From: Microgenomates group bacterium Gr01-1014_16
GTDB taxonomy: Bacteria; Patescibacteriota; Microgenomatia; CAZETR01; Amesbacteraceae
Direction: 5' to 3'
DNA: 35,093 bases
Assembly: GCA_007376345.1 (NCBI GenBank)
Contig: VMGA01000010.1
Coordinates: 1 to 35,093 of the forward strand
The notes beneath the pieces are model-generated. The model saw only the letters and a list, made by a program, of their open reading frames with translations. It was not told the origin of the DNA and ran no database searches. Positions 5,819 to 21,881 of this stretch are shown one piece after another. The translations under genes were made by a program, and so were the position numbers. The stretch's first letter is position 1. Each line of letters opens with the position of its first letter.

Positions 5819-5924
5819 TGAGCTGATTTTTAAAAAAGTTCGCACTGATTTTCGGGATTCACCGTAATGCTGCAGCTCGCTGCGCTCGCTTTTGGCTCCG
5901 GCTCGGCTGCGGCCTCGCCTCCGC
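5819..5924. repeat. Left end of element 1; inverted repeat with 12638-12743
   Basis: By-eye alignment: 104/106 identical to reverse complement of 12638-12743. Confidence 0.9.
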
Positions 5925-6018
5925 CATTTTTTGCGCGCGCCGTGTGCGACTGCCGTCGCACCAAGACCGAGAATTTTAAGTACGAACTGAATTTTCAAGT
6001 AACACAAGTATTTTACAA

Positions 6019-6420
6019 CATTCCAGACAGCCCACCCACCCGAATACAAAGGGTGGCGGCGACCCCACTTCCGTTCGCAGGGCTCCCTAGGGGGACCCTT
6101 GCCCATGTTTCAGCTGTTCTAGCAACTCTTCGCAATCCCTTCCGAACTAAATGCAGTTCTACTAAGTCAGCTCACTCCAGCGGGGTATCCGCTTTTTCGC
6201 CCCCGCCTTCTTTATCCTTACCCCATCTCGGGTCCGGACGGCTTCGCGAGGACTCTCAACGGTTCGGGCCGGAGTTCTGATTCCTTAGAAAGACCCGGCC
6301 CTCACGTGGGTCGGGCCCGCTTCTTCGCAAGCCTTCAAAAATTCCAAGGGAGTTCCTGTCGCGGGCCCTCCTTTTTAGCTGGTGCTCTCCGATACTGGGG
6401 CGGGGGCGGCGGACGCCGCC
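6019..6420. ncRNA. Structured GC-rich non-coding module, copy A (orientation unresolved)
   Basis: Ordered conserved blocks shared with 15020-15397 (CATTCC..CCCACCC..GGCGGCGACCCCAC; CGCCCCCGCCTT; CTCGGGTCCG; GGGGCGGGGGCGGCGGACGCCGCC); hairpin GGGCCCGC/GCGGGCCC at a position where copy B has GTCCCGCC/GGCGGGAC. Confidence 0.55.
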
Positions 6421-6426
6421 ACAAAA

Positions 6427-7614
6427 TTATTCTTCTGCTTCCGTTAGCTCCAAAGGCTTGATCTCTTGAAGTTCTCTCCCTGTTACTGCTTGTAGTTCAC
6501 CATACATTCCATGAGTATTGTCAATAATCTTGCGTAATTCTTTTTCCTGTCTCGACCATTTTAGATTAAACCAACGTTTTTCTTTCTCAATATCTCCTTG
6601 CAAATTATTAAATGCTTCAACTATGGCCTCTATTCTATGTGTAAATTCTACACTTCTTAAATATTGATACAAAACTTCCATTTTTTCGTTTTTGCCCACA
6701 TTAGCCAGTTTTTCAAAGTGGATATGAATTAAATCAAAGCGAAGGGCAATTGCTAGCCCTCTGGCGGACTTTATAGTTGTTATCCAAACATTTTCCCTGT
6801 AAACAAAGGTCTCAATATCCTCCGGTGGGTTGGCGACTACTAAAACCGCAAGTTGTGCTCCAGCCGCCCTTTGATCTTCTCTCAATTTCTTGAGCCATTC
6901 ATCTTTCCACTGCGCATTTTTAGACTCCCACAAGATCATTCCACACTCACGACCAAGTTTATCAACAACTGTTTGGGAAATATCTGCACCTCGTTCTCCT
7001 TTTTTAACTTCAGATACTTTGTCTTCAGGAAACTCTCTCCTTAGTATTTGTTCAAGTTCTAATTCCATGACCTCACCTTGGATTTGTTGAGATCCCTGTT
7101 CTAACTTGCGTTTTAGATCATCATTCATCTTTAATGCCTCTTGAAGCTTCTTGTCTTTTTCAGCATCTTTAAGTTGATGATTTTCTTGAGCCTCTTTGAG
7201 TGCATTGTCTCGGATCTTAACTCTTTCCTCGTCGAGCTGTCGTTGTTTTTCGATCTCAAATTTTTGTTTGGCCTCCTCCAGTTCTCGCTTCTCTTTTCTT
7301 ATTTTTAACTCTTGCTCTTCGGCTCGTTCCGCTCGTTGCTTGAGTTCAAGTATTTGCTCTTCTTTATCTTTGAGTTCCTTGGTGACACTTTCCTGAGCTT
7401 CGAGTTTTGCTTTCTCAGAAACCTGTTTTTTAGCTTCCTCAAATTCCTTTTTCTTTAACTCTTCAAATTCTTGCCTTTCGCGCTTGATTTGTTCAATTTC
7501 CCCTCGGTGTTTCAACTGCTCTTCCTTCAGTAATTTTTCTTCGAGTTCATGTTTGTAAGCATCGGTAGGCTCAAAAAGTTTCCCGCATTGTGGACATTTA
7601 ATTTGTGTGGTCAT
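6427..7614 (-). CDS. DUF2130-family protein: N-terminal zinc-ribbon-like motif, coiled coil, PD-(D/E)XK-like C-terminus
   Basis: IKCPQCGKLFEPTDAYKHELEEKLL; GADISQTVVDKLGRECGMILWESKNAQWKDEWLKKLREDQRAAGAQLAVLVV. Confidence 0.85.
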   Translation of the reverse strand: MTTQIKCPQCGKLFEPTDAYKHELEEKLLKEEQLKHRGEIEQIKRERQEFEELKKKEFEEAKKQVSEKAKLEAQESVTKELKDKEEQILELKQRAERAEEQELKIRKEKRELEEAKQKFEIEKQRQLDEERVKIRDNALKEAQENHQLKDAEKDKKLQEALKMNDDLKRKLEQGSQQIQGEVMELELEQILRREFPEDKVSEVKKGERGADISQTVVDKLGRECGMILWESKNAQWKDEWLKKLREDQRAAGAQLAVLVVANPPEDIETFVYRENVWITTIKSARGLAIALRFDLIHIHFEKLANVGKNEKMEVLYQYLRSVEFTHRIEAIVEAFNNLQGDIEKEKRWFNLKWSRQEKELRKIIDNTHGMYGELQAVTGRELQEIKPLELTEAEE

Positions 7615-7618
7615 AAAT

Positions 7619-9226
7619 TCATGTTAAAGGAAACGCTTTGCTATTGCATGTTTGAATAGCGTCAAAAATTATTTTCATTTCATTTTCAAATTCCAATTGA
7701 GTCACTTTGCTTGCAACATCCTTTGCATAGGAAACCTTTCTATCATTAGGAATGTCATTCTTACTCTTCCGGTAAGCAGGCGGATAATATTCCTCAAGCG
7801 ATTCTGTTGTTAGTTCAAAAACTTGGTTTTTCTGAAAAAGATATGGGTATCCCTGTTTAAAAAGATCATATTTTATTTTTTGATTTTTATTGGGTTTATC
7901 AATAAGTACAACCGCTGTCTTCTTATAGATTGGATTATCAGAACCTGCCAACGGCGAAAACAATTTATGAACAGCAAGTAGAGTAGGCTCTTGTTCATCG
8001 ATATCCCCTCCTGCATAAATAATTTTTAAACCTCTGTGCGTCTCAGCATAGAACCGTTTAATTACACTGTTTATAAATTCAAATTCGCTCCTTCCCTCGA
8101 CTATCAAAAAATTTCGAGGTAATAATAAATCAGAAGGACTTCCTCCTAATAAATCGAATATCACATCTACTTTATCGACATCACCAACCTCGTTTATGTC
8201 TGTAATTCTGTTATTTTTTTCAACCTTAAATATTTTTTGATTCTCATTATTATCGACAACTAGTACAGAAGAATGTGTATTCACCAACACTTGATCTGTC
8301 TTACTAATATCAACAAGCGCCCGTTTCAATGCACGTTGGGCCGAGGGATGAAGATGTAACTCTGCCTCATCTATTAAAAACAGAAATGAACCGCCACCGA
8401 GCTGTTCCTTTCTGTAGTCCGCAAAGGCCTGGATAATTGAAAGCATAATCGCTCTTTGCATTCCATCACCTTTATCCTCAGCTTTTGTTTCAATCCCATC
8501 GTATACGGTTGTATCGAAGCTTTTAAGTAATTCATTAAAATGAGGAGGATTAACTCCAAATTTCACTCTTGTTCCATCAGGAAACTGTTTTTGAAGATAT
8601 ATTTCAACTTTAGCACCTAGTTTATTAAGTTCTTTTCTTACTTCGGAATCTTCGTTATCGAACAATTTAGCAAATTGTTTTTTGAAATCAATATAATCTT
8701 GGGAATTCTCAATAATTGCAGACAGCACGCCGGAAAGCATGACACCTATCGGGTTTTTGTCTTTGTATTTAGACACATCGTCTAGCCTTATTTTTGTATT
8801 AATATATTCGAGTTTTGGCAAAAACTCATTAATGGCCGTATCTAAACCCTGCGGGTTACCCTTATTTTCTCCATCAACGATATAAACTCTCTTATGATCA
8901 GAACTAGTCTTTTTGACAGAAAATGACCCCGAGTTACCCAGTAGATTTTTCAGTTTGGTTTTATTTGCATCAGTTTTTAACTTATTAATATCCGATTCTT
9001 CAATCCCATCAAAGAAAATTTCGACACTGACTTGATTACTCGGATCCCTATTATAATGCTCATCGTCACTTGATGAATTTGCATTAAAAAACCACTCTAT
9101 GGCTTCAAACAAGTTAGTCTTTCCATGATTATTTTGACCTACAAAAATATTAAAAGCCTTAATTTCAAGATTTTCAATTTTTCGGATGGAGCGGTAATTA
9201 TTAATGGAGACTTTTGTAATTTTCAT
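7619..9226 (-). CDS. OLD-family AAA ATPase with TOPRIM-like domain
   Basis: SINNYRSIRKIENLEIKAFNIFVGQNNHGKTNLFEAIEWFF (Walker A), FLFLIDEAELHLHPSAQR, LIVEGRSEFEFI (TOPRIM-like). Confidence 0.88.
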   Translation of the reverse strand: MKITKVSINNYRSIRKIENLEIKAFNIFVGQNNHGKTNLFEAIEWFFNANSSSDDEHYNRDPSNQVSVEIFFDGIEESDINKLKTDANKTKLKNLLGNSGSFSVKKTSSDHKRVYIVDGENKGNPQGLDTAINEFLPKLEYINTKIRLDDVSKYKDKNPIGVMLSGVLSAIIENSQDYIDFKKQFAKLFDNEDSEVRKELNKLGAKVEIYLQKQFPDGTRVKFGVNPPHFNELLKSFDTTVYDGIETKAEDKGDGMQRAIMLSIIQAFADYRKEQLGGGSFLFLIDEAELHLHPSAQRALKRALVDISKTDQVLVNTHSSVLVVDNNENQKIFKVEKNNRITDINEVGDVDKVDVIFDLLGGSPSDLLLPRNFLIVEGRSEFEFINSVIKRFYAETHRGLKIIYAGGDIDEQEPTLLAVHKLFSPLAGSDNPIYKKTAVVLIDKPNKNQKIKYDLFKQGYPYLFQKNQVFELTTESLEEYYPPAYRKSKNDIPNDRKVSYAKDVASKVTQLEFENEMKIIFDAIQTCNSKAFPLT

Positions 9227-9252
9227 ATATGTTCGACAAAATAACCTTGAAA

Positions 9253-9552
9253 TTATTTATCTCCGCACATCGGATTAAGTTGTAACCGTAAATAAGATTC
9301 AATATGCAGTCTTATTTGTTGATTAGCCTCTCGATAAATTGCGACGTAAATGGTCTGGCTATTGGCATTTCTTTGCCAGCAAGACCGTCTTTCGTGCCCA
9401 GAAATCCGTGTGCCTAATTGATCGGTTTCTCCAACATCCAACCATCGCTCGTTAGTGTAGATGGCGTAAACCCCGGCCACATCATTAAACGCTGTCGATA
9501 GCGGATAACCGGTTTCAAGTTGATACCCGGCAATATTTGTTGTCATAATCAC
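9253..9552 (-). CDS. Small GIY-YIG-like protein
   Basis: GVYAIYTNERWLDVGETDQLGTRISGHERRSCW; possible GTG start at 9552 or ATG at 9546. Confidence 0.6.
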   Translation of the reverse strand: MIMTTNIAGYQLETGYPLSTAFNDVAGVYAIYTNERWLDVGETDQLGTRISGHERRSCWQRNANSQTIYVAIYREANQQIRLHIESYLRLQLNPMCGDK

Positions 9553-9568
9553 TTACTCCTTCTCCCTC

Positions 9569-9608
9569 TTGACAAAGTTAGTAAAAAGGTAGTAAATGTA
9601 TACTAGTA
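9569..9608. promoter_or_regulatory. Divergent LexA-like/GIY-YIG control region with three TAGTA repeats
   Basis: TTGACA at 9569; TAGTA at 9579, 9590 and 9604; palindrome TACTAGTA at 9601-9608. Confidence 0.35.
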
Positions 9609-9617
9609 CTCCTATTT

Positions 9618-10220
9618 ATGAATGTCAACATGGAAAAGCCAATAACCCCAAAGCAAAAGATAGTTTTCGAATTTATCAAATCTTTCTCCAAAAAAAACGG
9701 GTTTGCTCCATCACTTCAGGAAATTGCCGATTATCTCAATAAATCTTTAAGTACGGCACAGCATTTCGTGGCGGAGTTACATAAGAAAGGCTATCTACAA
9801 AAGAGCGAAAACGTCGCTAGGAGTATTAGCACGCTGGGGGATACCTTCAAACAAATTTTTAAGCTCGGGTATATTGCCGCCGGTAATCCGATAGAGCCGA
9901 TCGAAAACCCAGAGCCGATCGACGTGCCCACATCGTTTCTGGAAAAGCCGGGTAACTATTACGCTCTTGAAGTTAAAGGCAACAGTATGATTGAAGACAA
10001 CATATTAGACGGTGACACCGTGGTAATTAGGCACACACAGATAGCAGAAGACGGCGATAGAATAGTTGCAATAACGGAAGACGGTGCGACCCTTAAAGTT
10101 TTTAGAAATAAAAACGGCAAAACGTACTTAGAGCCTAGAAACAATAATTTGAGTGCTATTTATCCAAAGCAATTGGAAATCCGAGGAAAATATTGTGGTT
10201 TAATACGAAAAGGAGAATAA
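9618..10220 (+). CDS. lexA: LexA-like repressor/S24 peptidase
   Basis: ITPKQKIVFEFIKSFSKKNGFAPSLQEIADYLN (wHTH), YIAAGNPI, YALEVKGNSMIEDNILDGDTVVI, EDGATLKVF. Confidence 0.9.
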   Translation: MNVNMEKPITPKQKIVFEFIKSFSKKNGFAPSLQEIADYLNKSLSTAQHFVAELHKKGYLQKSENVARSISTLGDTFKQIFKLGYIAAGNPIEPIENPEPIDVPTSFLEKPGNYYALEVKGNSMIEDNILDGDTVVIRHTQIAEDGDRIVAITEDGATLKVFRNKNGKTYLEPRNNNLSAIYPKQLEIRGKYCGLIRKGE

Positions 10221-10243
10221 AATGATTATACCTGCCGACTTTT

Positions 10244-10648
10244 ATGGGAGATATATTCACAAAGGAAAAAAGAAGCGAAATAATGTCTCGGATTACCGGG
10301 AAAAATACGACACCGGAACTTACAGTAAGAAAAATTCTCCGAAAAATGGGGTACAAGTACCGCTTAAACGCCCACAACTTGCCGGGAAAACCGGATGTGG
10401 TTATTCATTCGGAGAAACTTGTTATTTTTGTCAACGGCTGCTTTTGGCATAACCATAAGGGGTGTAAAAGAAGCTCGTTACCGAAAACTAATACTGAATT
10501 TTGGAAAGACAAGATTAATAAAAATGTTGAAAAACAAAAACAAAGCATTAAAGCACTTAAAAAATTAGGTTGGAAGATTTTAGTGCTTTGGCAGTGTAAA
10601 ATTAACAACAATAATGCATTATTGAAAACTTTGTCTCAAAACCTATGA
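10244..10648 (+). CDS. vsr: Very short patch repair endonuclease (Vsr)
   Basis: RSEIMSRITGKNTTPELTVRKILRKMGYKYRLN...LPGKPDVV...VFVNGCFWHNHKGCK. Confidence 0.95.
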   Translation: MGDIFTKEKRSEIMSRITGKNTTPELTVRKILRKMGYKYRLNAHNLPGKPDVVIHSEKLVIFVNGCFWHNHKGCKRSSLPKTNTEFWKDKINKNVEKQKQSIKALKKLGWKILVLWQCKINNNNALLKTLSQNL

Positions 10649-11775
10649 AAAAAAATAAAAAAACACACTCCAATAAACCCGTCTTGATAGATTTGTTTGC
10701 CGGGGCTGGTGGGTTATCTATCGGATTTGAACAAGCCGGATTCAAATTAGTCGCAGCCACAGATTGGGATCATTGGTCTTGCGAAACATTGAGAGCCAAT
10801 CATAGAAATGTTTTTGTGGCCGAAGGGGATATAAACGAAGTAGACCTGAATGACTTTGCCGGTAAACTTTCTGCCGATGAAGTCGACCTAATAGTAGGCG
10901 GACCGCCTTGTCAAGGGTTTAGCGCGTTGGGGAAGAGATTGAAAAGTGACCCTCGGAATCAGCTTTGGCAACAGTATATGAGATTCGTTGAGTATTTCAA
11001 CCCGAAAGTTTTCTTAATGGAAAACGTTCCCGAACTTCTAAAGAGTGAGGAATATGTTCAAATTAAAAGAGCCGCGGAAAAACTTGGGTACCAAGTAAGG
11101 GAAAAGATATTATTTGCGCCTGATTACGGTGTGCCCCAAAAAAGAAGAAGGGCCATAATTTTGGGGAGCAGAATAGGTGAACCTAAATTTCCGAAACCCA
11201 CCCACTTGTTACCCGGCCAATTAACCTTGGATAACTACAGGTGTGTCCCGTGGAAAAGTGTCAGAGATGTTATAGGGGATCTCCCGTTAGAGCCGGACGG
11301 AAACAACTGGCATGTTGGAAGAAACCCTACTGAAAAATCTCTTAAAAGGTATAAGTCTGTCCCTCCCGGAGGAAATCGTTTTAATCTGCCGCAAGATCTT
11401 ATGCCTGATTGTTGGAAAAGGAAAAAAACCGGCTCAACAGACGTTTTCGGCAGGTTAGAGTGGGACAAGCCGTCGCTAACGATCCGAACGGAATTTTTCA
11501 AACCAGAAAAAGGAAGATATCTTCACCCGGAAGCTCACAGGCCGATAACTATCAGGGAAGCAGCCAGACTGCAAACTATTCCAGATAGCTACGTATTGAA
11601 GGGATCACATCTGGAGGTGGCTAAACAAATAGGAAATGCCGTACCGTGCGAATTGGCTAGAAACATTGGAGAGGAATTGCTAAAACTCTTTAGCACCGAT
11701 TCGGATAGCATCAAGGAGAAGAGAATTTACCGATCGACCGGTTTTGAGAGACTTCTCGCTTACCAACAACCTTAA
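10645..11775 (+). CDS. dcm: DNA (cytosine-5-)-methyltransferase
   Basis: DLFAGAGGLSIGFEQAGF, GGPPCQGFSALGKR, MENVPELL, QIGNAVPCELA. Confidence 0.95.
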   Translation: MKKNKKTHSNKPVLIDLFAGAGGLSIGFEQAGFKLVAATDWDHWSCETLRANHRNVFVAEGDINEVDLNDFAGKLSADEVDLIVGGPPCQGFSALGKRLKSDPRNQLWQQYMRFVEYFNPKVFLMENVPELLKSEEYVQIKRAAEKLGYQVREKILFAPDYGVPQKRRRAIILGSRIGEPKFPKPTHLLPGQLTLDNYRCVPWKSVRDVIGDLPLEPDGNNWHVGRNPTEKSLKRYKSVPPGGNRFNLPQDLMPDCWKRKKTGSTDVFGRLEWDKPSLTIRTEFFKPEKGRYLHPEAHRPITIREAARLQTIPDSYVLKGSHLEVAKQIGNAVPCELARNIGEELLKLFSTDSDSIKEKRIYRSTGFERLLAYQQP

Positions 11776-12279
11776 ATCGTCTGGAAGGTTTACTGAAACA
11801 ATTTTGTTTTTAATCGTTTCCGGATAAGCGGCAAGAGATTTTTTTCCAGCATTACATCTGCTACACAAAGTCCACAAATTTTCTTCCACAGTTTTTCCTT
11901 GTTGCCTTAATGGAGTTATATGATCAACCTCCAGATTCACTACATGCCCGTCATCATATTTTTCTCCTCCCTTGTGGCCGCATAGTTGGCACACATAGCG
12001 GTCACGCTCCAAGACTTTCAGCCTTAACTTCAGGTTAATATATCCGTCTGTCTGAACACCTTTCTTATTAACAGACTTCAAGGTATATCCGCTAGGGCTA
12101 CTGCTATAACGTATATCCCAACCCTCCGCTCTTAATTCTCTTATCCTGCGTGCGTAATTATGTTGCCCCGACACTTCAATCAGCTTCTCGTTCGGAACAA
12201 GCTTCCTCATATTTTCATACAACACGTCGAGTAATTTTTGCCAAACTCCGTTTTTATCGCTTTTGGGAACTCTTTTCAT
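11680..12279 (-). CDS. HNH endonuclease, probable cognate restriction enzyme
   Basis: RYVCQLCGHKGGEK...NLEVDHITPLRQQGKTVEENLWTLCSRCNAGK; 96-bp tail-to-tail overlap with dcm. Confidence 0.88.
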   Translation of the reverse strand: MKRVPKSDKNGVWQKLLDVLYENMRKLVPNEKLIEVSGQHNYARRIRELRAEGWDIRYSSSPSGYTLKSVNKKGVQTDGYINLKLRLKVLERDRYVCQLCGHKGGEKYDDGHVVNLEVDHITPLRQQGKTVEENLWTLCSRCNAGKKSLAAYPETIKNKIVSVNLPDDLRLLVSEKSLKTGRSVNSLLLDAIRIGAKEF

Positions 12280-12280
12280 A

Positions 12281-12493
12281 TCATATTCCCTTAAAGAGTT
12301 CCGATAACTCCAGTCCTAAAACTTTTGCAATCTTCTCAATATTTTCCAGCGAAACGTTACGTGTCCCTCGTTCCAAATCGCTTACATAAGTCCTATGCAG
12401 ACCGGATCTGAAAGCCAACTCCTCCTGGGATAGCCCCTTAGCTTTTCTCAATTGTCTCAGCCTCTTACCATATTTTCTTTTTATGTCGATCAT
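12281..12493 (-). CDS. XRE-family HTH regulator, C-protein-like
   Basis: YGKRLRQLRKAKGLSQEELAFRSGLHRTYVSDLERGTRNVSLENIEKIAKVL. Confidence 0.88.
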   Translation of the reverse strand: MIDIKRKYGKRLRQLRKAKGLSQEELAFRSGLHRTYVSDLERGTRNVSLENIEKIAKVLGLELSELFKGI

Positions 12494-12539
12494 AAGTTAC
12501 TGTTACTTATTGACTACATTTTACTTTTTGTATATTCTT

Positions 12540-12551
12540 AGTCTACAGACT
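12540..12551. promoter_or_regulatory. Candidate C-box operator AGTC-TACA-GACT
   Basis: Perfect dyad about 47 bp upstream of the C-protein-like start, followed by TATAAGTGAC. Confidence 0.45.
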
Positions 12552-12588
12552 ATAAGTGACGTATTGTATCAAAATATATCATTTATTG

Positions 12589-12611
12589 AAAATTTTTGCG
12601 TTTTCTTTTTG
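12589..12611. repeat. Left arm of perfect 23-bp inverted repeat bracketing the recombinase 1 leader
   Basis: AAAATTTTTGCGTTTTCTTTTTG is the reverse complement of 12841-12863. Confidence 0.9.
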
Positions 12612-12637
12612 AGAGAACGAGTCCGAGCCGATGTTTC

Positions 12638-12838
12638 GCGGAGGCGAGGCGACAGCCGAGCCGGAGCCAAAAGCGAGCGCAGCGAGCTGCAGCATTACGG
12701 TGAATCCCGAAAATCAGTGCGAACTTTTTTAAAAATCAGCTCAGAAAGTGAGTGGTCGGTGGCCCGCAGGGCCACAGTCTGCGCGGTGGGGGTCACGCAG
12801 AGCCTAGCAAAGCCCTTTTTGTAGTTCACCCTGAGTTG
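12638..12838. repeat. Internal inverted copy of the predicted circle junction (attP) of element 1
   Basis: 12638-12743 is the reverse complement of the left end; 12743-12838 is the reverse complement of the right end. Confidence 0.75.
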
Positions 12839-12840
12839 TA

Positions 12841-12863
12841 CAAAAAGAAAACGCAAAAATTTT
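12841..12863. repeat. Right arm of 23-bp inverted repeat, just upstream of recombinase 1
   Basis: CAAAAAGAAAACGCAAAAATTTT. Confidence 0.9.
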
Positions 12864-12881
12864 AAGTAAAACTAACTGCCT

Positions 12882-14558
12882 ATGAAATACATTGCTTATT
12901 GTAGAAAAAGTACTGACGAAAAGGATCGCCAAATCCTTAGTATTGAGTCCCAAATCCAGGAGATTCGGGACTTTACTCAAAGACAGCATTTAGAGATTAT
13001 AGAATTTGCAGTCGAAGCCAAAACCGCTAAAATTCCCGGTCGGGAAGTCTTTGAGCAAGTGTTAAGGAGAATTGAGAAAGGAGAGGCTCAAGGCGTAGTT
13101 TCCTGGCACCCGGATCGATTGGCCAGAAATAGTATTGACGGCGGCAAGATAATCTATCTTCTGGATACCGGTAAACTAATTGACCTTAAATTCCCATCGT
13201 TTTGGTTTGAAAATTCACCTCAAGGCAAGTTTGTATTAAATATCGCTTTCGGCCAATCTAAATACTATGTGGACAACTTATCCGAGAATGTCAAACGTGG
13301 TTTAAAACAACTTCTGCGCAATGGAATCTGGCCAGCCAAACCGCCCTACGGCTATATTTATAATAAATCTGCTAAGAAGCACGAGATTGACCCGATAAAA
13401 TCCAAACTCATCAAAAAGGCTTTCCACAAGTATGCCATTGCAGAATGGAATCAAACGCAAATATCCAAAGTATTGTTTGAACAAGGTTACAAACGGAAAA
13501 ACGGTAAATCACTTAGCTTAAATGAAGTTGTCCGTTTTCTAACCAACAAATTCTATATCGGTCTGTTTAAATACAATAGTGAATGGTACGAGGGAACTCA
13601 CGACCAATTTGTCCCCAAGGATCTTTTTGATGAAGTCCAAAGAAAACTCAACCAAAACAAACGCAACTTTGCCAACCGTAAATTCAACTTTTTAGGGCTA
13701 ATTAAATGTGGTGAATGTGGAGCGAGTATTACCGCTGAACACAAATTCAAGTTTTACAAACGCACTCGTGGCAAAGTTGAGTATATTTACTACCGGTGTA
13801 CTAAAAAGTTGAGACATTGTGGCCAAAAGTACATTCAGGAACCGAATCTCGAGCAACAACTTCGCAAAACCATTTCTGATGTGGCTTTACCCCCAACTTG
13901 GGCGGATCAGTGGATGAAATGGTTGGAAAGAGATGAGTTAATCGAAGAACAAACTGCCAGTGGCAAAGTAATAAGGTTACAGAGTTTAGTGAAAACACAC
14001 GATGAAAAGTTGAACACACTTTTAGACGGATATCTGGATGGAACGATTGAGTCCGAAACCTACAAGAGCAAGAAGAATCAATTGTTTGAGGAAAAGGTCA
14101 AGCTTCACGAAGAAATAATCAAACTTGAGAGTCAGGGTTCCACTTGGCTCGGACCAATGCGAGAATTTATACAAACCGCGAAGAATGGGGACAAAATGGC
14201 GCGCGCAAAAAATAATGGCGAAGAATTAGCAATCTTCGCCAGAAACATCGGCTCGGACTACTTTTTAACTGACCGGCAACTCAGGGTGAACTACAAAAAG
14301 GGCTTTGCTAGGCTCTGCGTGACCCCCACCGCGCAGACTGTGGCCCTGCGGGCCACCGACCACTCACTTTCTTCGTTGGCGGCCGCCAGTTTCTGCCATT
14401 CCCATCCGGATCCGCAGTACGTGCTGGCCAGCCCCCACAGCGTCTCGCCTCTGGTTATCTCGTGGGTGACCACCTTCAGCTCCGCTTTCGGCAAATTCAA
14501 TTTCATGCCGATCTCCAACAAACCAGGATTAGACAGAGCATCTTTATTTTCGGCATAA
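12882..14558 (+). CDS. Large serine recombinase 1; native part probably ends near the element right end, ORF then reads antisense into the LysM gene
   Basis: MKYIAYCRKSTDEKDRQILSIESQIQEI (resolvase Ser), HPDRLARNSIDGG, zinc-ribbon CGECGASITAEHK...YYRCTKK; ~similar to recombinase 2 up to NYKKGF. Confidence 0.92.
   Translation: MKYIAYCRKSTDEKDRQILSIESQIQEIRDFTQRQHLEIIEFAVEAKTAKIPGREVFEQVLRRIEKGEAQGVVSWHPDRLARNSIDGGKIIYLLDTGKLIDLKFPSFWFENSPQGKFVLNIAFGQSKYYVDNLSENVKRGLKQLLRNGIWPAKPPYGYIYNKSAKKHEIDPIKSKLIKKAFHKYAIAEWNQTQISKVLFEQGYKRKNGKSLSLNEVVRFLTNKFYIGLFKYNSEWYEGTHDQFVPKDLFDEVQRKLNQNKRNFANRKFNFLGLIKCGECGASITAEHKFKFYKRTRGKVEYIYYRCTKKLRHCGQKYIQEPNLEQQLRKTISDVALPPTWADQWMKWLERDELIEEQTASGKVIRLQSLVKTHDEKLNTLLDGYLDGTIESETYKSKKNQLFEEKVKLHEEIIKLESQGSTWLGPMREFIQTAKNGDKMARAKNNGEELAIFARNIGSDYFLTDRQLRVNYKKGFARLCVTPTAQTVALRATDHSLSSLAAASFCHSHPDPQYVLASPHSVSPLVISWVTTFSSAFGKFNFMPISNKPGLDRASLFSA
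14277..14372. repeat. Right end of element 1; 96-bp inverted repeat with 12743-12838
   Basis: Identical to reverse complement by eye. Confidence 0.92.
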
Positions 14559-14818
14559 ATATCCACCCAGTTGTATCCTGATCCGTAAGCTTTCTCGGCA
14601 ATTTTCCACAAATTGTCACCGGCTTTAACAGTATATGCGGCCGGTAATTGATCCCCTGTAGGCACCTCACCATCAGATTCGACTTCGGTCTGATCAGAAG
14701 ATGTCTGTTCCCGGTCAACTTTATTGACAGATTTGAAATAGTTAAACAGCAAAGCACCTACCAAAACAACCACTCCGATCCCCAACATCCGGCTAAAAGT
14801 CGTTTCGTTGATTTTCAA
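14291..14818 (-). CDS. LysM protein with C-terminus replaced by element 1 right-end sequence
   Basis: TM then YTVKAGDNLWKIAEKAYGSGYNW...LEIGMKLNLP and HEITRGETLWGLASTYCGSGWEWQKLAAANE; residues after NE are element-encoded. Confidence 0.85.
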   Translation of the reverse strand: MKINETTFSRMLGIGVVVLVGALLFNYFKSVNKVDREQTSSDQTEVESDGEVPTGDQLPAAYTVKAGDNLWKIAEKAYGSGYNWVDIYAENKDALSNPGLLEIGMKLNLPKAELKVVTHEITRGETLWGLASTYCGSGWEWQKLAAANEESEWSVARRATVCAVGVTQSLAKPFL

Positions 14819-14891: not shown

Positions 14892-14948
14892 GCGGGGTCT
14901 GTACGAAAAAGTTCGAACCTGCTTTACCTCGTAATGTCGCAGCTCCCT
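14892..14948. repeat. Left end of element 2; inverted repeat with 20117-20173
   Basis: 57/57 identical to the reverse complement by eye. Confidence 0.92.
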
Positions 14949-15019
14949 TTTTTACGCGCGCGCTTGTCCCGCTTCGGCGGGACAGAACCCACGAACCAAT
15001 TAACGAAAACCATTATACT

Positions 15020-15397
15020 GCATTCCGACTCAACCCACCCGCCCCCGGATATGGAAGGCGGCGACCCCACGCCTCCCGCCGCAGTCGCCCTCGGTCAGCG
15101 TCTGCGGGCGGTGGCGGATCCCCGTTCGACTTGCTCACGGCTGCCACTTCTTTACAACCTTTCACAGCTTTCACAGGTCAAAGTACATTTCCACCTCATA
15201 GGTAAAAGCGATGGTCGGCGTGGGGTGATTCCGCTTTCGCCCCCGCCTTTTATATCGTACCCCATCCTCGGGTCCGCACGGCTCCGCGAGGACACTCCAC
15301 GGCTCACTGCGGCTCGCTGGGGTCGTCCCGCCTAATTCGGCGGGACTCCTTTTAGCAGCTAATCCCCGAATCTGGGGCGGGGGCGGCGGACGCCGCC
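15020..15397. ncRNA. Structured GC-rich non-coding module, copy B (orientation unresolved)
   Basis: Homologous block order to 6019-6420; hairpin GTCCCGCC/GGCGGGAC (15325-15332/15339-15346); ends GGGGCGGGGGCGGCGGACGCCGCC. Confidence 0.55.
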
Positions 15398-15466
15398 AAT
15401 TTATAAATCGGATTCAAACTAATACCTTCTGTGAGCCCCTGTGGTGCCGTTTACCGGCCATTTTCC

Positions 15467-15494
15467 TTGACAACACTACAGATAGTGGTACACT
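15467..15494 (+). promoter_or_regulatory. Promoter with operator-like dyad in the spacer
   Basis: TTGACA (15467-15472), 16-bp spacer, TACACT (15489-15494); dyad CACTA-CAGA-TAGTG in the spacer. Confidence 0.6.
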
Positions 15495-15549
15495 TTATTT
15501 AACAACAAAGTATCTCAAAAGATACATAGACAAATTAGGGATTGATCCG

Positions 15550-15578
15550 CCCCGGTTTGCAGAAAGACTGGGGTTTTT
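15550..15578 (+). terminator. Terminator/attenuator-like hairpin in the leader of the small ORF at 15595
   Basis: CCCCGGTTTGCAGAAAGACTGGGG followed by TTTTT, about 20 nt before the start codon. Confidence 0.5.
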
Positions 15579-15594
15579 ATTAACTATTTGAATT

Positions 15595-15837
15595 ATGTCA
15601 ACTTTAGGCAATAGACTTATCAAATTATTTACGAATCTAAAATGGACAACTCCCAGAGTGGGTTTGGCAAATCATGGGAGAAAGTGGTGTCCGCCACCAG
15701 GTGTAACTACAAGCTATCCGGGGCAACAACCATTTATCTTGATGCCACGAAAAGTCAACGAGAATGTTATTAAATACATCATCCAAGAGCTAAAGAGGTT
15801 CGGGTATGCCAAGAAAGATCTAGAGGACGAACTCTAA
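15595..15837 (+). CDS. Small protein, possibly HicA-like toxin
   Basis: PFILMPRKVNENVIKYIIQELKRFGYAKKDLEDEL resembles a HicA C-terminus; tail-to-tail with a HicB-like gene. Confidence 0.4.
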   Translation: MSTLGNRLIKLFTNLKWTTPRVGLANHGRKWCPPPGVTTSYPGQQPFILMPRKVNENVIKYIIQELKRFGYAKKDLEDEL

Positions 15838-16199
15838 GCGGTTACAAGTCTTGCTCGAAAAACTGGCTCAGGTGGATATACCACTGTTCCATCGTCTAAT
15901 TTCAAAGTAAGCGTATCAGGAAGCTTCCTCGCGCGGTATCTGGGAACGTCAAAATAGGTAAGAATAGAGTCAAAAATAGCCTCTCTAAGTTCTGATTCGT
16001 TTTCTCCACTTGCTATTAGACCAGGGTAATCTACCGATTCTACCCAAATTAAACCCCGATCTCGGTGAGTCTTAAATTGAAGATCCAGTTTAAATGGGGG
16101 TAAGGAAGGGGGTCGATTTCGCAAGATATCAAACAAAACGAAATCCTTCAAATCTAACAATAAATCTATCAATTTATATTTTACTATACTCATATTCAT
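15834..16199 (-). CDS. HicB-like antitoxin-fold protein
   Basis: RDRGLIWVESVDYPGLIASGENESELREAIFDSILTYFD. Confidence 0.6.
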   Translation of the reverse strand: MNMSIVKYKLIDLLLDLKDFVLFDILRNRPPSLPPFKLDLQFKTHRDRGLIWVESVDYPGLIASGENESELREAIFDSILTYFDVPRYRARKLPDTLTLKLDDGTVVYPPEPVFRARLVTA

Positions 16200-16420
16200 A
16201 TTAATTCACATTATAATACTACGTCACTAGTATCGGGCCAGGAAGTTTGGTTGTCAATCGTCTTCTGTGTGCAGTCAGACAACTGATCGAAAAAGAGCCA
16301 TTGTACTGGGATTATATACCTGATGAGTATTTTAGTCCAGATTACCAAAAAAATAAACCCTAACACCTGGAATCTCAAAGAATAACGGTGAAAGAGTATC
16401 GCGAAGTGTAAAATTAAGCC

Positions 16421-17293
16421 ATGGCAGCAACTTTGTGGCATTCGCAAAACTTCATTGGTAATCCCAGTCTCGTCTCCAAACTACTTGGAATGACGGATAT
16501 AAACTCGTCTGATTTCGTGATTGAAATTGGTCCCGGAAAGGGCGCAATAACTGGACAGTTGGTCAGATCGGCTGGTTCAGTGTTGGCAATTGAAGCTGAC
16601 TTGAATCTCGCGAACAAACTTAACATCCAGAATGTCAAGGTAATTCAAGGAGATTTCTTAAAACATGCTCTCCCAGATCAAGTATACAAAGTCGTCGCAA
16701 ATATCCCCTTCAACTTAACCGCCGAAATAATTAGGAAGTTGTTTTTGAGCGATGAGAACAAGCCTGAGGCTGCTTTTCTAATCATGCAGAATGAAGCAGC
16801 CCAAAAGTTTGCCGGAGTACCCAAAGCTACCCTTTCTTCTATTTTGATTCAAGTTGAGTACGACACCAGGATACTGACTAAAATCGACAAAGGAGAATTT
16901 GTTCCCACTTCCAAAGTCGACGCCGCCTTTATTTCGTTTATAAAAAGGGGTCAACCATTGGTTAACCGGACATATTCTCGAGAATTCGCAGACTTTGTTG
17001 CCTACGGCTATAAATATTTTCGATGGAATGAGCCGTTGATAAGCGTCTTTGATAGATTATTTACCAATTCCCAGAAAGAAAATCTGGAGAAAAAATTTCA
17101 ATTAACCGGCCAAAAAGTTTCCGACTTAGAAGTGTTTAAATGGATCGGACTATTTAATGATCTGGTGGATCAAGTGGCAACAGAAAAGTGGGATATATTC
17201 CGTGGAACAATGGAAAAATTAACTGAAGAACAATCACGGCTACAAAAACGACACAAAACTCAAACAAATCTTGGGAAAACTAATAAATCGTAG
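16421..17293 (+). CDS. rRNA adenine N6-methyltransferase, Erm/KsgA family
   Basis: LWHSQNFIGNPSLVSKLL, VIEIGPGKGAITGQLV, VVANIPFNLTAEIIRKLFL. Confidence 0.88.
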   Translation: MAATLWHSQNFIGNPSLVSKLLGMTDINSSDFVIEIGPGKGAITGQLVRSAGSVLAIEADLNLANKLNIQNVKVIQGDFLKHALPDQVYKVVANIPFNLTAEIIRKLFLSDENKPEAAFLIMQNEAAQKFAGVPKATLSSILIQVEYDTRILTKIDKGEFVPTSKVDAAFISFIKRGQPLVNRTYSREFADFVAYGYKYFRWNEPLISVFDRLFTNSQKENLEKKFQLTGQKVSDLEVFKWIGLFNDLVDQVATEKWDIFRGTMEKLTEEQSRLQKRHKTQTNLGKTNKS

Positions 17294-17316
17294 TAAACTT
17301 TTTATATCTACACTGG

Positions 17317-18003
17317 ATGAAAACCCGCCTACCAAAATCAAAAGGGGATTGGAAAACTGCAGTCGCTGTTGGTGCTACAGCGTTAATAGCCTCAGGTGGA
17401 TTATGGTGGATTGGTGATAGGAATAAAATTCCTGTTCCGGCCTACAAAATGCTCCGGGTCATAGACGGCGACACCTTTGAAACTACCGAACGTCAATTAA
17501 TCCGACTCTCCGGCGTCAACGCTCCGGAATTGGCAAATTGTTATGGCCAAGAGGCTAAAAGCACATTACAAAAATTAATTACTAACAAAAATCTTTATCT
17601 CAAAGTTATTTACCGCGACGGCAGCAATCGCCTGATCAGCCACGTTTATACCGATAAAGGGTTAGTTGCAACTCAGCTCGCTCGGGAAGGCACTGTATAC
17701 GACTTCGGTAGGGGTCTAGATGACCCTGAATTTGACCAAGCTGTAGATTATGCAAAGTCACACAAAATCGGAATTTTCAGCCCCAAATGCACACAGACAA
17801 TCAATACTGCCAATCCCAAGTGTGCCATCAAAGGCAATGTTCGCACTCCAGACTCCAAGCTATATCGTTTTCCGGGATGTGGAAATTACACAACCACGTT
17901 AGTTCAATTGTCATTAGACGATCGCTGGTTTTGTACCGAAAAAGAAGCTCAATCAGCCGGTTTTTCCAAAGGTTCAGACTGTTTTAACCAGAGTTGGAAA
18001 TAA
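17317..18003 (+). CDS. Thermonuclease (SNase-family), N-terminally anchored
   Basis: MLRVIDGDTFETTERQLIRLSGVNAPELANCYGQEAKSTLQKLI. Confidence 0.92.
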   Translation: MKTRLPKSKGDWKTAVAVGATALIASGGLWWIGDRNKIPVPAYKMLRVIDGDTFETTERQLIRLSGVNAPELANCYGQEAKSTLQKLITNKNLYLKVIYRDGSNRLISHVYTDKGLVATQLAREGTVYDFGRGLDDPEFDQAVDYAKSHKIGIFSPKCTQTINTANPKCAIKGNVRTPDSKLYRFPGCGNYTTTLVQLSLDDRWFCTEKEAQSAGFSKGSDCFNQSWK

Positions 18004-18249
18004 GTAGAATTATCTGACAGGAAAATTAATGTGATAATGCGCAAAAACCAAATAGGTGTCGTATCTGATTTCTTCTTCAATTACTTGATCCATAACCACC
18101 AGAAAGTCCAGTGCCTAAAATTTTCTTAATTTCTAATTTCATTCTAAGGTCTATTTTACTCTTTAACCACCATATAAATCGAGGAACCATCCAATTTATG
18201 CTCTGTCTCATTTCTATCGCAACTCACGCTTAGCAAGGAATACAAAGTA

Positions 18250-19011
18250 TCAAATCTCACAGGAAGGAACCAATTGTAAGTTTTCTTCCTCTACCAGGCT
18301 TAGGAAATAGTCCGAAAGTAAAAAGTTAACGTCGTCTAGTCGCTCTTGGATAAATGAAGTTAAACCCTTTTCAAAATCAGTTGAATACCCCGGATGAAAA
18401 AATATCTCAATTGATTTTATTTGTCCTAATTGTTTGAGAAAAGCTAAATCCTGTTTATAAGCGGTGTATATGTCCTTGGGAAAACCATATCTAAAACCAA
18501 GAATTGCGTCGGCGGTTCTGCCAATGTTTAAGCCTTTTGGAGTCTCATCGGCTTTAAGAGTGAAATGGCCAAGAGTGTTAGAGCGCTCACCCCTGCGAGC
18601 ATAACAGATATTCCTGACACAATAATCGGCAATATACCTGACAATTTTTGAATTTAATGAGATTTGTTTGTGCCCAATGATGTGTTTAGGGGTAAAACCG
18701 ATTAGTTGTTCAAATAGACGAACCTCTTCCTCAAAAGCAGCGATTAATTGCTCGGGAGTCCAGTTCAGTAAGATATCATCGTAATCTTTTCCTCTCAAAA
18801 CCTTGCCATCCTTGGAAATTCGACAAAGTGAGAAATGTAGTCCCACGTTTTGCACGCTGTTGTTTTTGATGTAATTAACAGCGTTCATGGAACCATAACA
18901 ATCAACCATGAGGGAAAGTTCAGTTATCCGACCTTTTTCATAAGCCTCAATTATGGCTCTGTTAGTGTTTTCAGTAAATCCGAAGTCGTCTGCCGTTGTT
19001 AGTGTCTTCAT
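18250..19011 (-). CDS. YdjC/ChbG-HpnK family carbohydrate deacetylase
   Basis: LTTADDFGFTENTNRAIIEAYEKGRITELSLMV; VGLHFSLC; IFFHPGY. Confidence 0.88.
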   Translation of the reverse strand: MKTLTTADDFGFTENTNRAIIEAYEKGRITELSLMVDCYGSMNAVNYIKNNSVQNVGLHFSLCRISKDGKVLRGKDYDDILLNWTPEQLIAAFEEEVRLFEQLIGFTPKHIIGHKQISLNSKIVRYIADYCVRNICYARRGERSNTLGHFTLKADETPKGLNIGRTADAILGFRYGFPKDIYTAYKQDLAFLKQLGQIKSIEIFFHPGYSTDFEKGLTSFIQERLDDVNFLLSDYFLSLVEEENLQLVPSCEI

Positions 19012-19928
19012 GTGTTGTTTTTGGCCTCCACCTTATTCATGAGAATTACTGAAGCTACAATCAACAAACCACCTAAAATTTCTTTTAATGCCGGAGTCTC
19101 TGAAAAAACAATTAGTCCAATCAAAACCGCAAAGGCCGACTCTAGAGTCAAAATATTACTTGCGTGTACAGCTTCTACTTTTTGGAATCCATACTGGGAA
19201 AGAAAATTGTTTAGGACATTGAAGAAGCCTGATGCCAAGACAGCAATAATAATACCCAAACTCCAGCCACTTGACGGTAATGACTCTCCTGCCAAAATTG
19301 AAGCTAAAAATAATATTATTGAACCGATTAATAAAATTAGCGACGTAATTTCTTTGTTTGTCAGTAAGTTGGAGTGCCATTTTCGAGTAACATAAGCAAA
19401 AGAAAAGAAAACCGCGGATATGAGAGCGTAAAAGTCTCCTTTTACCCACGACAATAAGTTTGAATAGTCCTGAGCCGAAATCAGCATTACCCCACCAAAA
19501 GCCAGAATAATTAACAGAACCTTTTTAATTGTCAGTTTTTCCTTGAATAGTAAAAAGCCGAAAAATGCCGTTAGAGGAAGAGAACCGATAAATGAAACAT
19601 TGCTGTATTTGGTAAGTAGTAATGCCCTAGTGAACAGGTTGACACCAAGTATGTAAAACGAGATAGACCTAAGAGTTAACAAAGACCATTCTTTTAGAGT
19701 TATTCTTCTAAGTTTTGACAAATCTAGTGACTTGTTAAAAAAAATTAAACTCATCAGAAATGCAGCAAACATTCGAAGATAAATTTGTTGAAATATAGCA
19801 AAAGACGTGTTGAGGTATCTCACAAAAATACCCATAATTGCATAAATGAAAGCCAGCCACACCAGAACAATTACCCCTTTGTTATGGTCAGACAAAACTT
19901 TTAAGCGATTAATGATCTTGTTACTCAT
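19008..19928 (-). CDS. EamA/DMT family transporter
   Basis: About ten hydrophobic segments, two-fold repeat, LLFKEKLTIKKVLLIILAFGGVMLI; ATGA overlap with the deacetylase. Confidence 0.85.
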   Translation of the reverse strand: MSNKIINRLKVLSDHNKGVIVLVWLAFIYAIMGIFVRYLNTSFAIFQQIYLRMFAAFLMSLIFFNKSLDLSKLRRITLKEWSLLTLRSISFYILGVNLFTRALLLTKYSNVSFIGSLPLTAFFGFLLFKEKLTIKKVLLIILAFGGVMLISAQDYSNLLSWVKGDFYALISAVFFSFAYVTRKWHSNLLTNKEITSLILLIGSIILFLASILAGESLPSSGWSLGIIIAVLASGFFNVLNNFLSQYGFQKVEAVHASNILTLESAFAVLIGLIVFSETPALKEILGGLLIVASVILMNKVEAKNNT

Positions 19929-20008
19929 TGGATCATTTTATGCTTTCGATTATCAAATTGGAATAACTATTGACTTCGGGTTAGATTAGGTAATAATTAA
20001 ATAAGTAC

Positions 20009-20035
20009 CTTAAAAATTTTTGCGTTTTCTTTTTG
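20009..20035. repeat. Left arm of ~23-26 bp inverted repeat bracketing the recombinase 2 leader
   Basis: Near reverse complement of 20286-20311 (one substitution, one extra A). Confidence 0.85.
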
Positions 20036-20116
20036 CCCTAATGGGGTTCGGCCGATGTTTAGCGGAGGCGCGGGCGCAGCCGCGCCGGCCTGGCCTGCCG
20101 AAGCTGAAAGCGAAGG

Positions 20117-20271
20117 AGGGAGCTGCGACATTACGAGGTAAAGCAGGTTCGAACTTTTTCGTACAGACCCCGCATTTCGAGATATGCAACAGCCGGGTTC
20201 AGCCCGCCCGACTGGCGGGCGTAGGAAAATACGGCATCAAAGCCTTTTTTATAATCCAGCGAATTTTGCCG
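20117..20271. repeat. Internal inverted copy of the predicted circle junction (attP) of element 2
   Basis: 20117-20173 is the reverse complement of the left end; 20169-20271 matches the right end (98/103); overlap is CCCGC, complement of core GCGGG. Confidence 0.8.
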
Positions 20272-20320
20272 GATTGGAGAAAGTACAAAAAGAAAACGTA
20301 AAAATTTTAAGAGACTGACC

Positions 20321-21847
20321 ATGAAATACATCGCCTATTGCCGCAAATCCACCGACGAGAACAGCCGCCAGGTGTTATCCATCGAATCCCAAATCGCCGA
20401 ATTAACAGAGTTTGCTCAAAGAGAAAGTTTAGAGGTGGTGGAGTTTGTCACTGAAGCCAAAACGGCCAAGGAACCCGGTCGGGAGAAATTCAAAGCGATG
20501 TTGGCAACTATCGCGTCCGGCAAGGCTAACGCAATTTTAGCTTGGCACCCCGACAGGCTAGCCAGAAATTCCATAGACGGTGGAAATATTGTTTACTTGC
20601 TGGATATAGGTAAACTGCTCGACCTGAAATTTCCCTCTTTTTGGTTTGACAATACTTCCCAAGGCAAATTTATATTGGCAATCGCCTTCGGCCAATCCAA
20701 ATACTACGTCGATAACTTAAGCGAGAATGTCAAAAGGGGATTGCGCCAAAAATTGCGTCTGGGCATCTGGCCCAGCCATGCTCCATTAGGCTACAAAAAT
20801 GATCTAGTCACACACGAGATCCTTGTCGACGATCAAAAATCAAAATTAGTGAACAAGGTATTTACCCTGTTTCTCAATGAAAAGTCATTCGTGAAAATAT
20901 CCAAGTTTTTGTTAGAACATGGAGTTACAGGGAAAAACGGCAAACCTCTGCACCTCACCCGGATTCGGCGCATGCTCACCAATCCCTTCTACATTGGCAA
21001 GTTCTTCTACAAATGCGAGTGGCATCAAGCCAGCCACAAACTATTCCTCTCAAAGCAACTATTCGACCAAGTCCAAGAGGGGGTAAAGGCAATATCTAGA
21101 CAAACATATCACTCGCACCGGTTTGCTTTTTTGGGTTTAGCCAAATGCCGCGAATGTGGTGCCACCATCACGGCTGAACGGCATATCAAACACTACAAGC
21201 ACGGCGGCTCCCAGAAGTTTGTTTACTACCGCTGTACCAAAAAATCCGGTCCATGCACCCAGCCATATCTCCCCGAACTCGAATTTGAACACCAGGTGCG
21301 CCGCATTATCTCCGACGTCGCCTTACCGGAGAATTGGGGTCAACAATGGCTGAACTGGCTGGACCAAGACGAACAGCTGGAAAAATTAAAATCCGCCGAC
21401 CAAATCAATAAACTCACACTCCAAATCAATGACATTGACGCCAAACTCGAATCTTTGCTGGACGGTTTCCTCGACCAAGTCGTCGACAGTCCGAGTTACA
21501 AAACCAAGAAAAACCAGCTATTTGAACAGAAAGGCAAACTGGAGAGGGAAATTGGTCAACTCCAAAGAGATGGTTCGAGTTGGCTCGAACCAATGCGAGA
21601 GATAATAAAGACGGCGGTGGATGGGGACAAAAGCGCGCGCGTAAAAAATAATTCCGATGAACTGTTATCCATCGGAAAAAACATCGGCTCGAACTACTTT
21701 CTCCACCAACGGCAAATTTCGCTGGATTATAAAAAGGGCTTTGATGCTGTATTTTCTTACGCCCGCCAGTCGGGCGGGCTGAACCCGGCTGCTGCATATC
21801 TCGAAATGCGGGCCCGACCGGATTCGAACCGGCGGTCTCTTCCTTGA
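20321..21847 (+). CDS. Large serine recombinase 2; ORF tail reads antisense into tRNA-Asp
   Basis: MKYIAYCRKSTDENSRQVLSIESQIAEL, HPDRLARNSIDGG, CRECGATITAERHIK; tail RPDSNRRSLP is the tRNA antisense reading. Confidence 0.93.
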   Translation: MKYIAYCRKSTDENSRQVLSIESQIAELTEFAQRESLEVVEFVTEAKTAKEPGREKFKAMLATIASGKANAILAWHPDRLARNSIDGGNIVYLLDIGKLLDLKFPSFWFDNTSQGKFILAIAFGQSKYYVDNLSENVKRGLRQKLRLGIWPSHAPLGYKNDLVTHEILVDDQKSKLVNKVFTLFLNEKSFVKISKFLLEHGVTGKNGKPLHLTRIRRMLTNPFYIGKFFYKCEWHQASHKLFLSKQLFDQVQEGVKAISRQTYHSHRFAFLGLAKCRECGATITAERHIKHYKHGGSQKFVYYRCTKKSGPCTQPYLPELEFEHQVRRIISDVALPENWGQQWLNWLDQDEQLEKLKSADQINKLTLQINDIDAKLESLLDGFLDQVVDSPSYKTKKNQLFEQKGKLEREIGQLQRDGSSWLEPMREIIKTAVDGDKSARVKNNSDELLSIGKNIGSNYFLHQRQISLDYKKGFDAVFSYARQSGGLNPAAAYLEMRARPDSNRRSLP

Positions 21848-21881
21848 CAGGGAAGCGCGCTAACCGCTACGCTACGAGCCC
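21809..21881 (-). tRNA. tRNA-Asp (anticodon GTC)
   Basis: GGGCTCG/CGGGCCC acceptor, anticodon loop CTGTCAA, T arm CCGGTTCGAATCCGG, G73. Confidence 0.92.

Follow-up and report, generated by a model that had tools for sequence, protein, structure and literature searches.

Serine integrases are understood to act by double-strand cleavage and exchange. Inverted recombination sites that flank genes on a circle are found in the yeast 2-micron plasmid (FRT sites), and SSV-type archaeal elements encode tyrosine recombinases whose attP lies inside the int gene, integration cutting int in two. In serine integrase systems, the distance of the zinc-domain motif from the core is 5 bp greater in attP than in attB (PMC3783163). 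CTXphi has two inverted att sites that are able to pair on one strand (PMC3089051). Here, we analyzed a 35,093-nt stretch of DNA, the window (contig VMGA01000010.1, Microgenomates group bacterium Gr01-1014_16), which contains two integrated elements, each with a serine recombinase gene and an inverted internal copy of its own attachment site.

Architecture of Element 2

Element 2 is 6921 bp long (14892..21812, + strand), and is bounded by an L arm and an R arm. Its left end, attL (14892..14948, + strand), consists of the L arm, a P′-type half, with a GCGGG core and a TTCGAAC motif. Its right end, attR (21710..21812, + strand), is formed by the R arm, which lies within the 3′ coding end of int. 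A complete inverted attP copy with the structure rcL|rcR, hereafter attP2, is located between them at 20117..20271 on the − strand. Positions 20117–20173 are identical to the reverse complement of the left end, 14892–14948 (57/57), and positions 20169–20271 match the reverse complement of the right end, 21710–21812, at 98 of 103 positions. The two halves overlap by CCCGC, the crossover core (20169..20173, − strand), whose reverse complement, GCGGG, is present at both outer junctions and which is common to attL, attP2, and attR. The initial annotation had described an internal inverted site built of two halves with these identities and this overlap, and our re-alignment agrees. A repeat finder returned the same arm pairs, and an exact match of 57 nt is far above chance expectation in 35 kb. 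Read on the opposite strand, 20117–20271 is R followed directly by L, the junction expected upon circularization of element 2. The L and R ends differ, and the sole inverted repeat of each is at the internal site; an IS-like transposon with terminal inverted repeats was thus ruled out, because the two ends are not repeats of each other. The five R-arm mismatches would fit a slow decay of the pair in a resident copy.

The int gene (20321..21847, + strand) encodes, in its integrated form, a large serine recombinase of 508 aa (Pfam Resolvase, Recombinase, and Zn_ribbon_recom). Both int products of the window scored above the cut-offs for PF00239, PF07508, and PF13408, corresponding to the Resolvase catalytic domain, the Recombinase domain, and the zinc ribbon. 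The site at the int 3′ end, attP1, straddles the end of the gene: the R arm provides the last int codons, and is followed by the core and by the L arm. In integrated element 2, the C-terminus of Int is encoded by the antisense of a tRNA-Asp gene; the native C-terminus, read from attP2, is ...RGLYEKVRTCFTS, and the C-terminus expected for int on the circle, from the internal copy, is ...AYLEMRGLYEKVRTCFTS. The tRNA-Asp(gtc) gene (21808..21881, − strand; detected by ARAGORN and Rfam) is the integration target (attB side), with its 3′ end at the core. Same-family relatives without the element have the gene order LysM–tRNA-Asp–NUDIX–PolX, seen most clearly in locus L241, and loci L239, L248, and L249 agree in part with an element-free LysM–tRNA-Asp–(NUDIX)–PolX order. 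This places element 2 at the tRNA-Asp 3′ end.

Two short motifs mark the interior of the element. The P motif is found between attP2 and int (20286..20308, + strand), with an inverted copy on the cargo side of attP2 (20013..20035, − strand), and the X motif (ATCGGCTCGAAC; 21683..21694, + strand) lies just inside R. The cargo comprises genes for an rRNA adenine dimethylase family protein (PF00398, KsgA/Erm type; 16421..17293, + strand), an SNase-like protein (17317..18003, + strand), a YdjC-like protein (18250..19011, − strand), and an EamA transporter (19008..19928, − strand).

Element 1 and the Rest of the Window

The initial annotation also held that elements 1 and 2 share their topology, and the arm pairs of element 1 confirm this. 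Its left end (L arm, 5819..5924, + strand) is 98% identical to the reverse complement of 12638–12743, and its right end (R arm, 14277..14372, + strand), which lies inside the 3′ end of int, is 100% identical to the reverse complement of 12743–12838. The attP2 of element 1 (rcL|rcR) thus covers 12638..12838 on the − strand, upstream of the gene for its large serine recombinase (12882..14558, + strand). The spacing between the R arms is 1438 nt in either element, while the attP2 halves of element 1 share an overlap of just 1 bp, as opposed to the 5 bp (CCCGC) of element 2.

Element 1 (5819–14372) is not inserted at a tRNA gene, and its right end enters a LysM gene (14291–14818) truncated at its 3′ end. 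The non-tRNA position, together with the 1-bp core, suggests that the target was unusual or that a rearrangement followed. Relatives L248 and L249 have a tRNA-Gly gene just downstream of LysM. The cargo of element 1 (6427–12279), which looks like a defense island, codes for a C5 DNA methylase, a Vsr endonuclease, an HNH protein, a LexA-like repressor, an AAA ATPase, and a DUF2130 protein. The left-end regions of elements 1 and 2 share GC-rich (82–86%) non-coding repeats, at 6195–6421 and 15235–15398, respectively. An ORF at 1044–1733 (within 997–1766 of the window), which we take to encode a protein resembling REP-associated (Y1) transposases, is flanked by 38-nt imperfect inverted repeats. 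The genome from which the window comes contains three further int copies of the family and one copy with interrupting stops (G000, contigs C50, C44, C27, and C43).

Conservation of the Layout

A class-level search revealed close relatives of the integrase in 85 of 374 genomes; a second search was phylum-wide. In the class set, 108 integrase loci were examined, and an R-arm pair was counted when at least 40 nt long. An inverted R arm was present just upstream of int in 96 of the 108 loci, and in 48 the L arm was also located. The R pairs (n = 96) had a median length of 98.5 nt and 99.0% identity, 41 of them being 100% identical, and the L pairs (n = 48) had a median length of 101 nt and 99.2% identity; identical arms extended ~100 nt on each side, and up to 334 nt. 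In three loci (L122, L136, and L149), the L pair was kept and R′ no longer matched the 3′ end of int. Relatives from the phylum-wide search also carried the inverted copy, and hosts named in a GTDB scan included Daviesbacteria, Woesebacteria, Gottesmanbacteria, Levybacteria, and Amesbacteria.

The layout was found in the single-contig genomes G029, G045, G064, G075, G111, G131, G192, and G317, as well as in CP055307.1, which is titled a complete chromosome. An assembly artefact is excluded: dozens of independent genomes show the layout, some of them assembled as a single contig. The initial annotation had also argued against a simple assembly duplication. Its proposal that the topology is a conserved design, which it had made dependent on orthologous elements keeping the layout, is supported, since they do keep it. 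The presence of the layout in both elements of the window is part of a Patescibacteria-wide trait, rather than a coincidence of two elements. In the open-access literature, to which the search was confined (subscription papers being outside it), no description of this architecture was found.

In a tree of 145 integrases (a fast tree, with some long outgroup branches), all 120 copy-bearing integrases fell into one clade of 130 members, with a support of 99. Among the 125 classified clade members, 5 had no copy. All 15 integrases outside the clade were without a copy, and in some of them int ran into tRNA genes. As judged from this tree, attP2 has a single origin in the integrase clade and has almost never been lost. 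In more distant relatives that are inserted at tRNA genes, int runs into the tRNA gene and no R copy is present; thus, attP1 is the older site.

Target Sites and Site Usage

The R end abuts a tRNA gene at its 3′ end in 83 of the 96 relatives with an R pair, and 15 isotypes are represented. In 44 of 48 elements, the TTCGAAC motif is 4–5 bp further from the core in the L half of attP than it is in the T-arm of the tRNA gene. The internal copy is P-type by this spacing, which matches the published 5-bp attP/attB shift; its designation as attP-like in the initial annotation is borne out. That annotation had missed the position of the right end within the int coding sequence, the tRNA-Asp target, and the concerted evolution of the copies. 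From motif and spacing, the recombinase appears to read the tRNA T-arm as an attB half-site. Large serine recombinase sites share a core of at least the 2-bp crossover. In 42 of 48 elements, the junctions have an overlap of 3–7 bp in common; it is GCGGG in element 2 and just 1 bp in element 1.

In all tRNA-anchored elements (83/83), the site used was attP1, at the int 3′ end, and int was convergent with the tRNA gene; a tRNA gene on the other side, upstream of int, was found in none of the 83. The orientation of the cargo, as followed by the P and X markers, is nearly fixed, with about one inversion among 38 elements. L050 is the sole element with the X motif, along with P, at the outer left end rather than beside attP2, and is a probable case of cargo inversion. 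The orientation of int and cargo leads us to reject an equivalent second attP, and a two-step transfer of linear DNA via attP2 is rejected on the reasoning that it would yield an orientation never observed. The idea, put forward in the initial annotation, that the internal site itself works in recombination is not supported by these counts. Thus, attP2 is not interchangeable with attP1, since 83 of 83 tRNA cases used the int 3′-end site: either the two are not equivalent in nature, or the products of attP2 use do not survive. Use of attP2 would put int under the tRNA promoter, and selection against this outcome is possible.

Concerted Evolution and Cargo Exchange

For 78 of 79 R pairs and 41 of 41 L pairs, the two copies within an element resembled each other more closely than their best match among other elements. 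This likeness within elements holds even among integrases that are ~90% identical, and mismatches show a fairly even distribution along the R arm. The cleanest explanation of copy identity, as far as sequence comparison goes, would be that one site is repeatedly overwritten with a copy of the other. The copying appears to be non-crossover, because reciprocal recombination would also invert int or cargo, and such inversions were hardly ever seen. Pure compensatory selection for pairing is unlikely, since the arms are ~24% diverged between nearest elements and ~1% mismatched within one.

Among proteins recognized in the elements, no second one was common to more than 9 of 48 (an HTH family); a host-encoded or unrecognized directionality factor may exist. 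Locus L055 (G057:C1), a contig of 4636 bp, has identical 51-bp ends, an intact R|L junction, a full-length int, and an N gap at attP2, and carries Vsr and C5 methylase genes in addition to int; it is a candidate circular form of a family member. Cargo is diverse across the family, including restriction-modification genes, enzymes, and membrane proteins. Elements L142 and L150, from different families, share cargo that is 93% identical over 5.2 kb, with different integrases and tRNA targets; therefore, modules have been exchanged. Patterns derived from element 2 Int revealed no relatives in IMG/VR, and among the matches listed for phages and plasmids, recombinases were at most 27% identical to Int; on these searches, carriage of the family by phages or plasmids was rejected.

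Motifs Flanking attP2

In 55 of 80 elements, attP2 is flanked on either side by inverted copies of the P motif (around AAAACGCAAAAATTT), at medians of 144 and 121 nt from the attP2 core. One P motif faces int and the other faces the cargo, with attP2 midway between them; the gene on the cargo side is often divergent. P and X were found beside the inner L arm in 37 and 34 of 48 elements, and beside the outer L arm in 3 and 1 of 48, respectively. A σ70-like −10 element (TATAAT-like) was not enriched at the inner end of R′ over shuffled sequences, and an int promoter carried by this end was rejected on that basis.

Discussion

We tentatively favor a role for attP2 as a putative Int-binding control site that is kept matched to attP1 by non-crossover copying. 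Int bound at attP2 would feed back on the expression of int (and cargo), and this feedback could work in both the circular and integrated states, attP1 itself being split on integration. Breaks made by Int at one copy would probably be repaired from the other, by non-crossover repair centered on the core. Since a control site must hold the sequence that Int currently recognizes, attP2 would have to follow attP1. A control site is favored by the symmetry of the P motifs, with int on one side and an often divergent cargo gene on the other. It is disfavored by the distance from core to int start, which at 91–699 nt is loose for an operator, and by the extent of arm identity (~100 nt on each side), which far exceeds the ~50-bp footprint of Int. 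The proposal also needs an extra cause for the lack of attP2 use, such as an effect of the flanks, occlusion, or selection against int behind a tRNA promoter.

Single-strand folding of the CTXphi kind, with L pairing with rcL and R with rcR on one strand, is a strong rival, although in our estimate rather unlikely, for all that it would account for the inversion, the copy identity, and the single usable site. It would yield a double-stranded attP on ssDNA, or splint the ends for recircularization without a directionality factor, and strand polarity would set which site is used. In CTXphi, attP1 and attP2 are inverted and pair in ssDNA to make attP(+) (PMC3089051); the architecture here is the same, and all pairs are inverted. 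The joined arms of element 2 fold, as their sequence leads one to expect, into a pair of stems that adjoin at the core (−199 kcal/mol), the identity of the arms reaches well past the Int footprint, and no common directionality factor was found among proteins encoded by the 48 elements. By analogy, such folding would thus explain much, but it is in conflict with the double-strand chemistry of serine integrases: cutting of both strands on a folded single-stranded circle would, we reason, break the chromosome into hairpin ends. Moreover, the loops are long (1.4 kb, and 0.6–9.7 kb), and a rolling-circle initiator and a single-stranded form remain hypothetical for these elements. That a family of serine recombinases acts on folded ssDNA, for example after natural transformation, achieving mobility without a directionality factor through one usable site, we regard as unlikely; if true, pairing of the spare attP with the element ends would reconstitute a double-stranded attP on a single strand, or would splint recircularization.

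We consider it improbable that attP2 is neutral and survives from an ancient head-to-head duplication, its identity to attP1 maintained through repair conversion alone. Single origin and concerted evolution would require no function; yet there are just 5 losses among the 125 classified members of a phylum-wide clade whose cargo is highly variable, and P motifs are placed on either side of the site. Still less probable, and close to the view of the initial annotation, is a second active attP that would allow integration by either site, or a 2-micron-like inversion switching int or cargo. Such a site should be complete, P-type, and nearly identical to attP1, as attP2 is, and L050 looks cargo-inverted, but among known serine integrases, attP does not recombine with another attP (PMC3783163), none of the 83 tRNA-anchored elements used attP2, and cargo orientation, as followed by the P and X markers, is nearly fixed. 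An activity of attP2 in the chromosome, by which an integrated element would recombine with new tRNA sites without excision, is very unlikely: an intact P-type site does persist in the integrated element, and the 48 elements have no recognized directionality factor in common, but int would be left between two tRNA genes, an arrangement seen in none of the 83 elements.

Whichever role attP2 has, the elements form a widespread and apparently undescribed family of gene-carrying elements in Patescibacteria, the candidate phyla radiation, whose genomes are tiny. To our knowledge, few mobile elements are known from this phylum. Reading of the T-arm as a zinc-domain motif could make these integrases useful for tRNA loci. 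A phylum-wide inverted spare attP whose evolution is concerted with that of the used site is not what one would expect of serine integrases, and provides a clean test case for the use of an internal site in control, repair, or single-strand folding by these enzymes.

The elements resemble the phiC31, Bxb1, and Listeria LI/A118 systems in the domain order of Int and in the attL/attR/attP/attB logic, and also in the position of the zinc-domain motif, 4–5 bp nearer to the core in attB than in attP (PMC3783163). They differ from these systems in that attP lies within the 3′ end of int, that many tRNA 3′ ends are targeted, and that upstream of int they keep a second attP, complete and inverted. As in SSV-type elements, attP is located within int, so integration alters int; in contrast to them, a serine recombinase is used, int is not cut in two, and an inverted second attP is present. 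The circle would, like the 2-micron plasmid, hold two inverted recombination sites flanking genes, but no sign of flipping was seen (0/83 for int, ~1/38 for cargo) and one site is used. The closest architectural parallel is provided by CTXphi. However, CTXphi relies on host tyrosine recombinases (single-strand exchange by XerCD at dif), whereas the elements described here have a serine recombinase of their own and are inserted at tRNA genes; and the loop of CTXphi is ~90 nt, while here the loop is the int gene, with arms of ~100 nt on each side.
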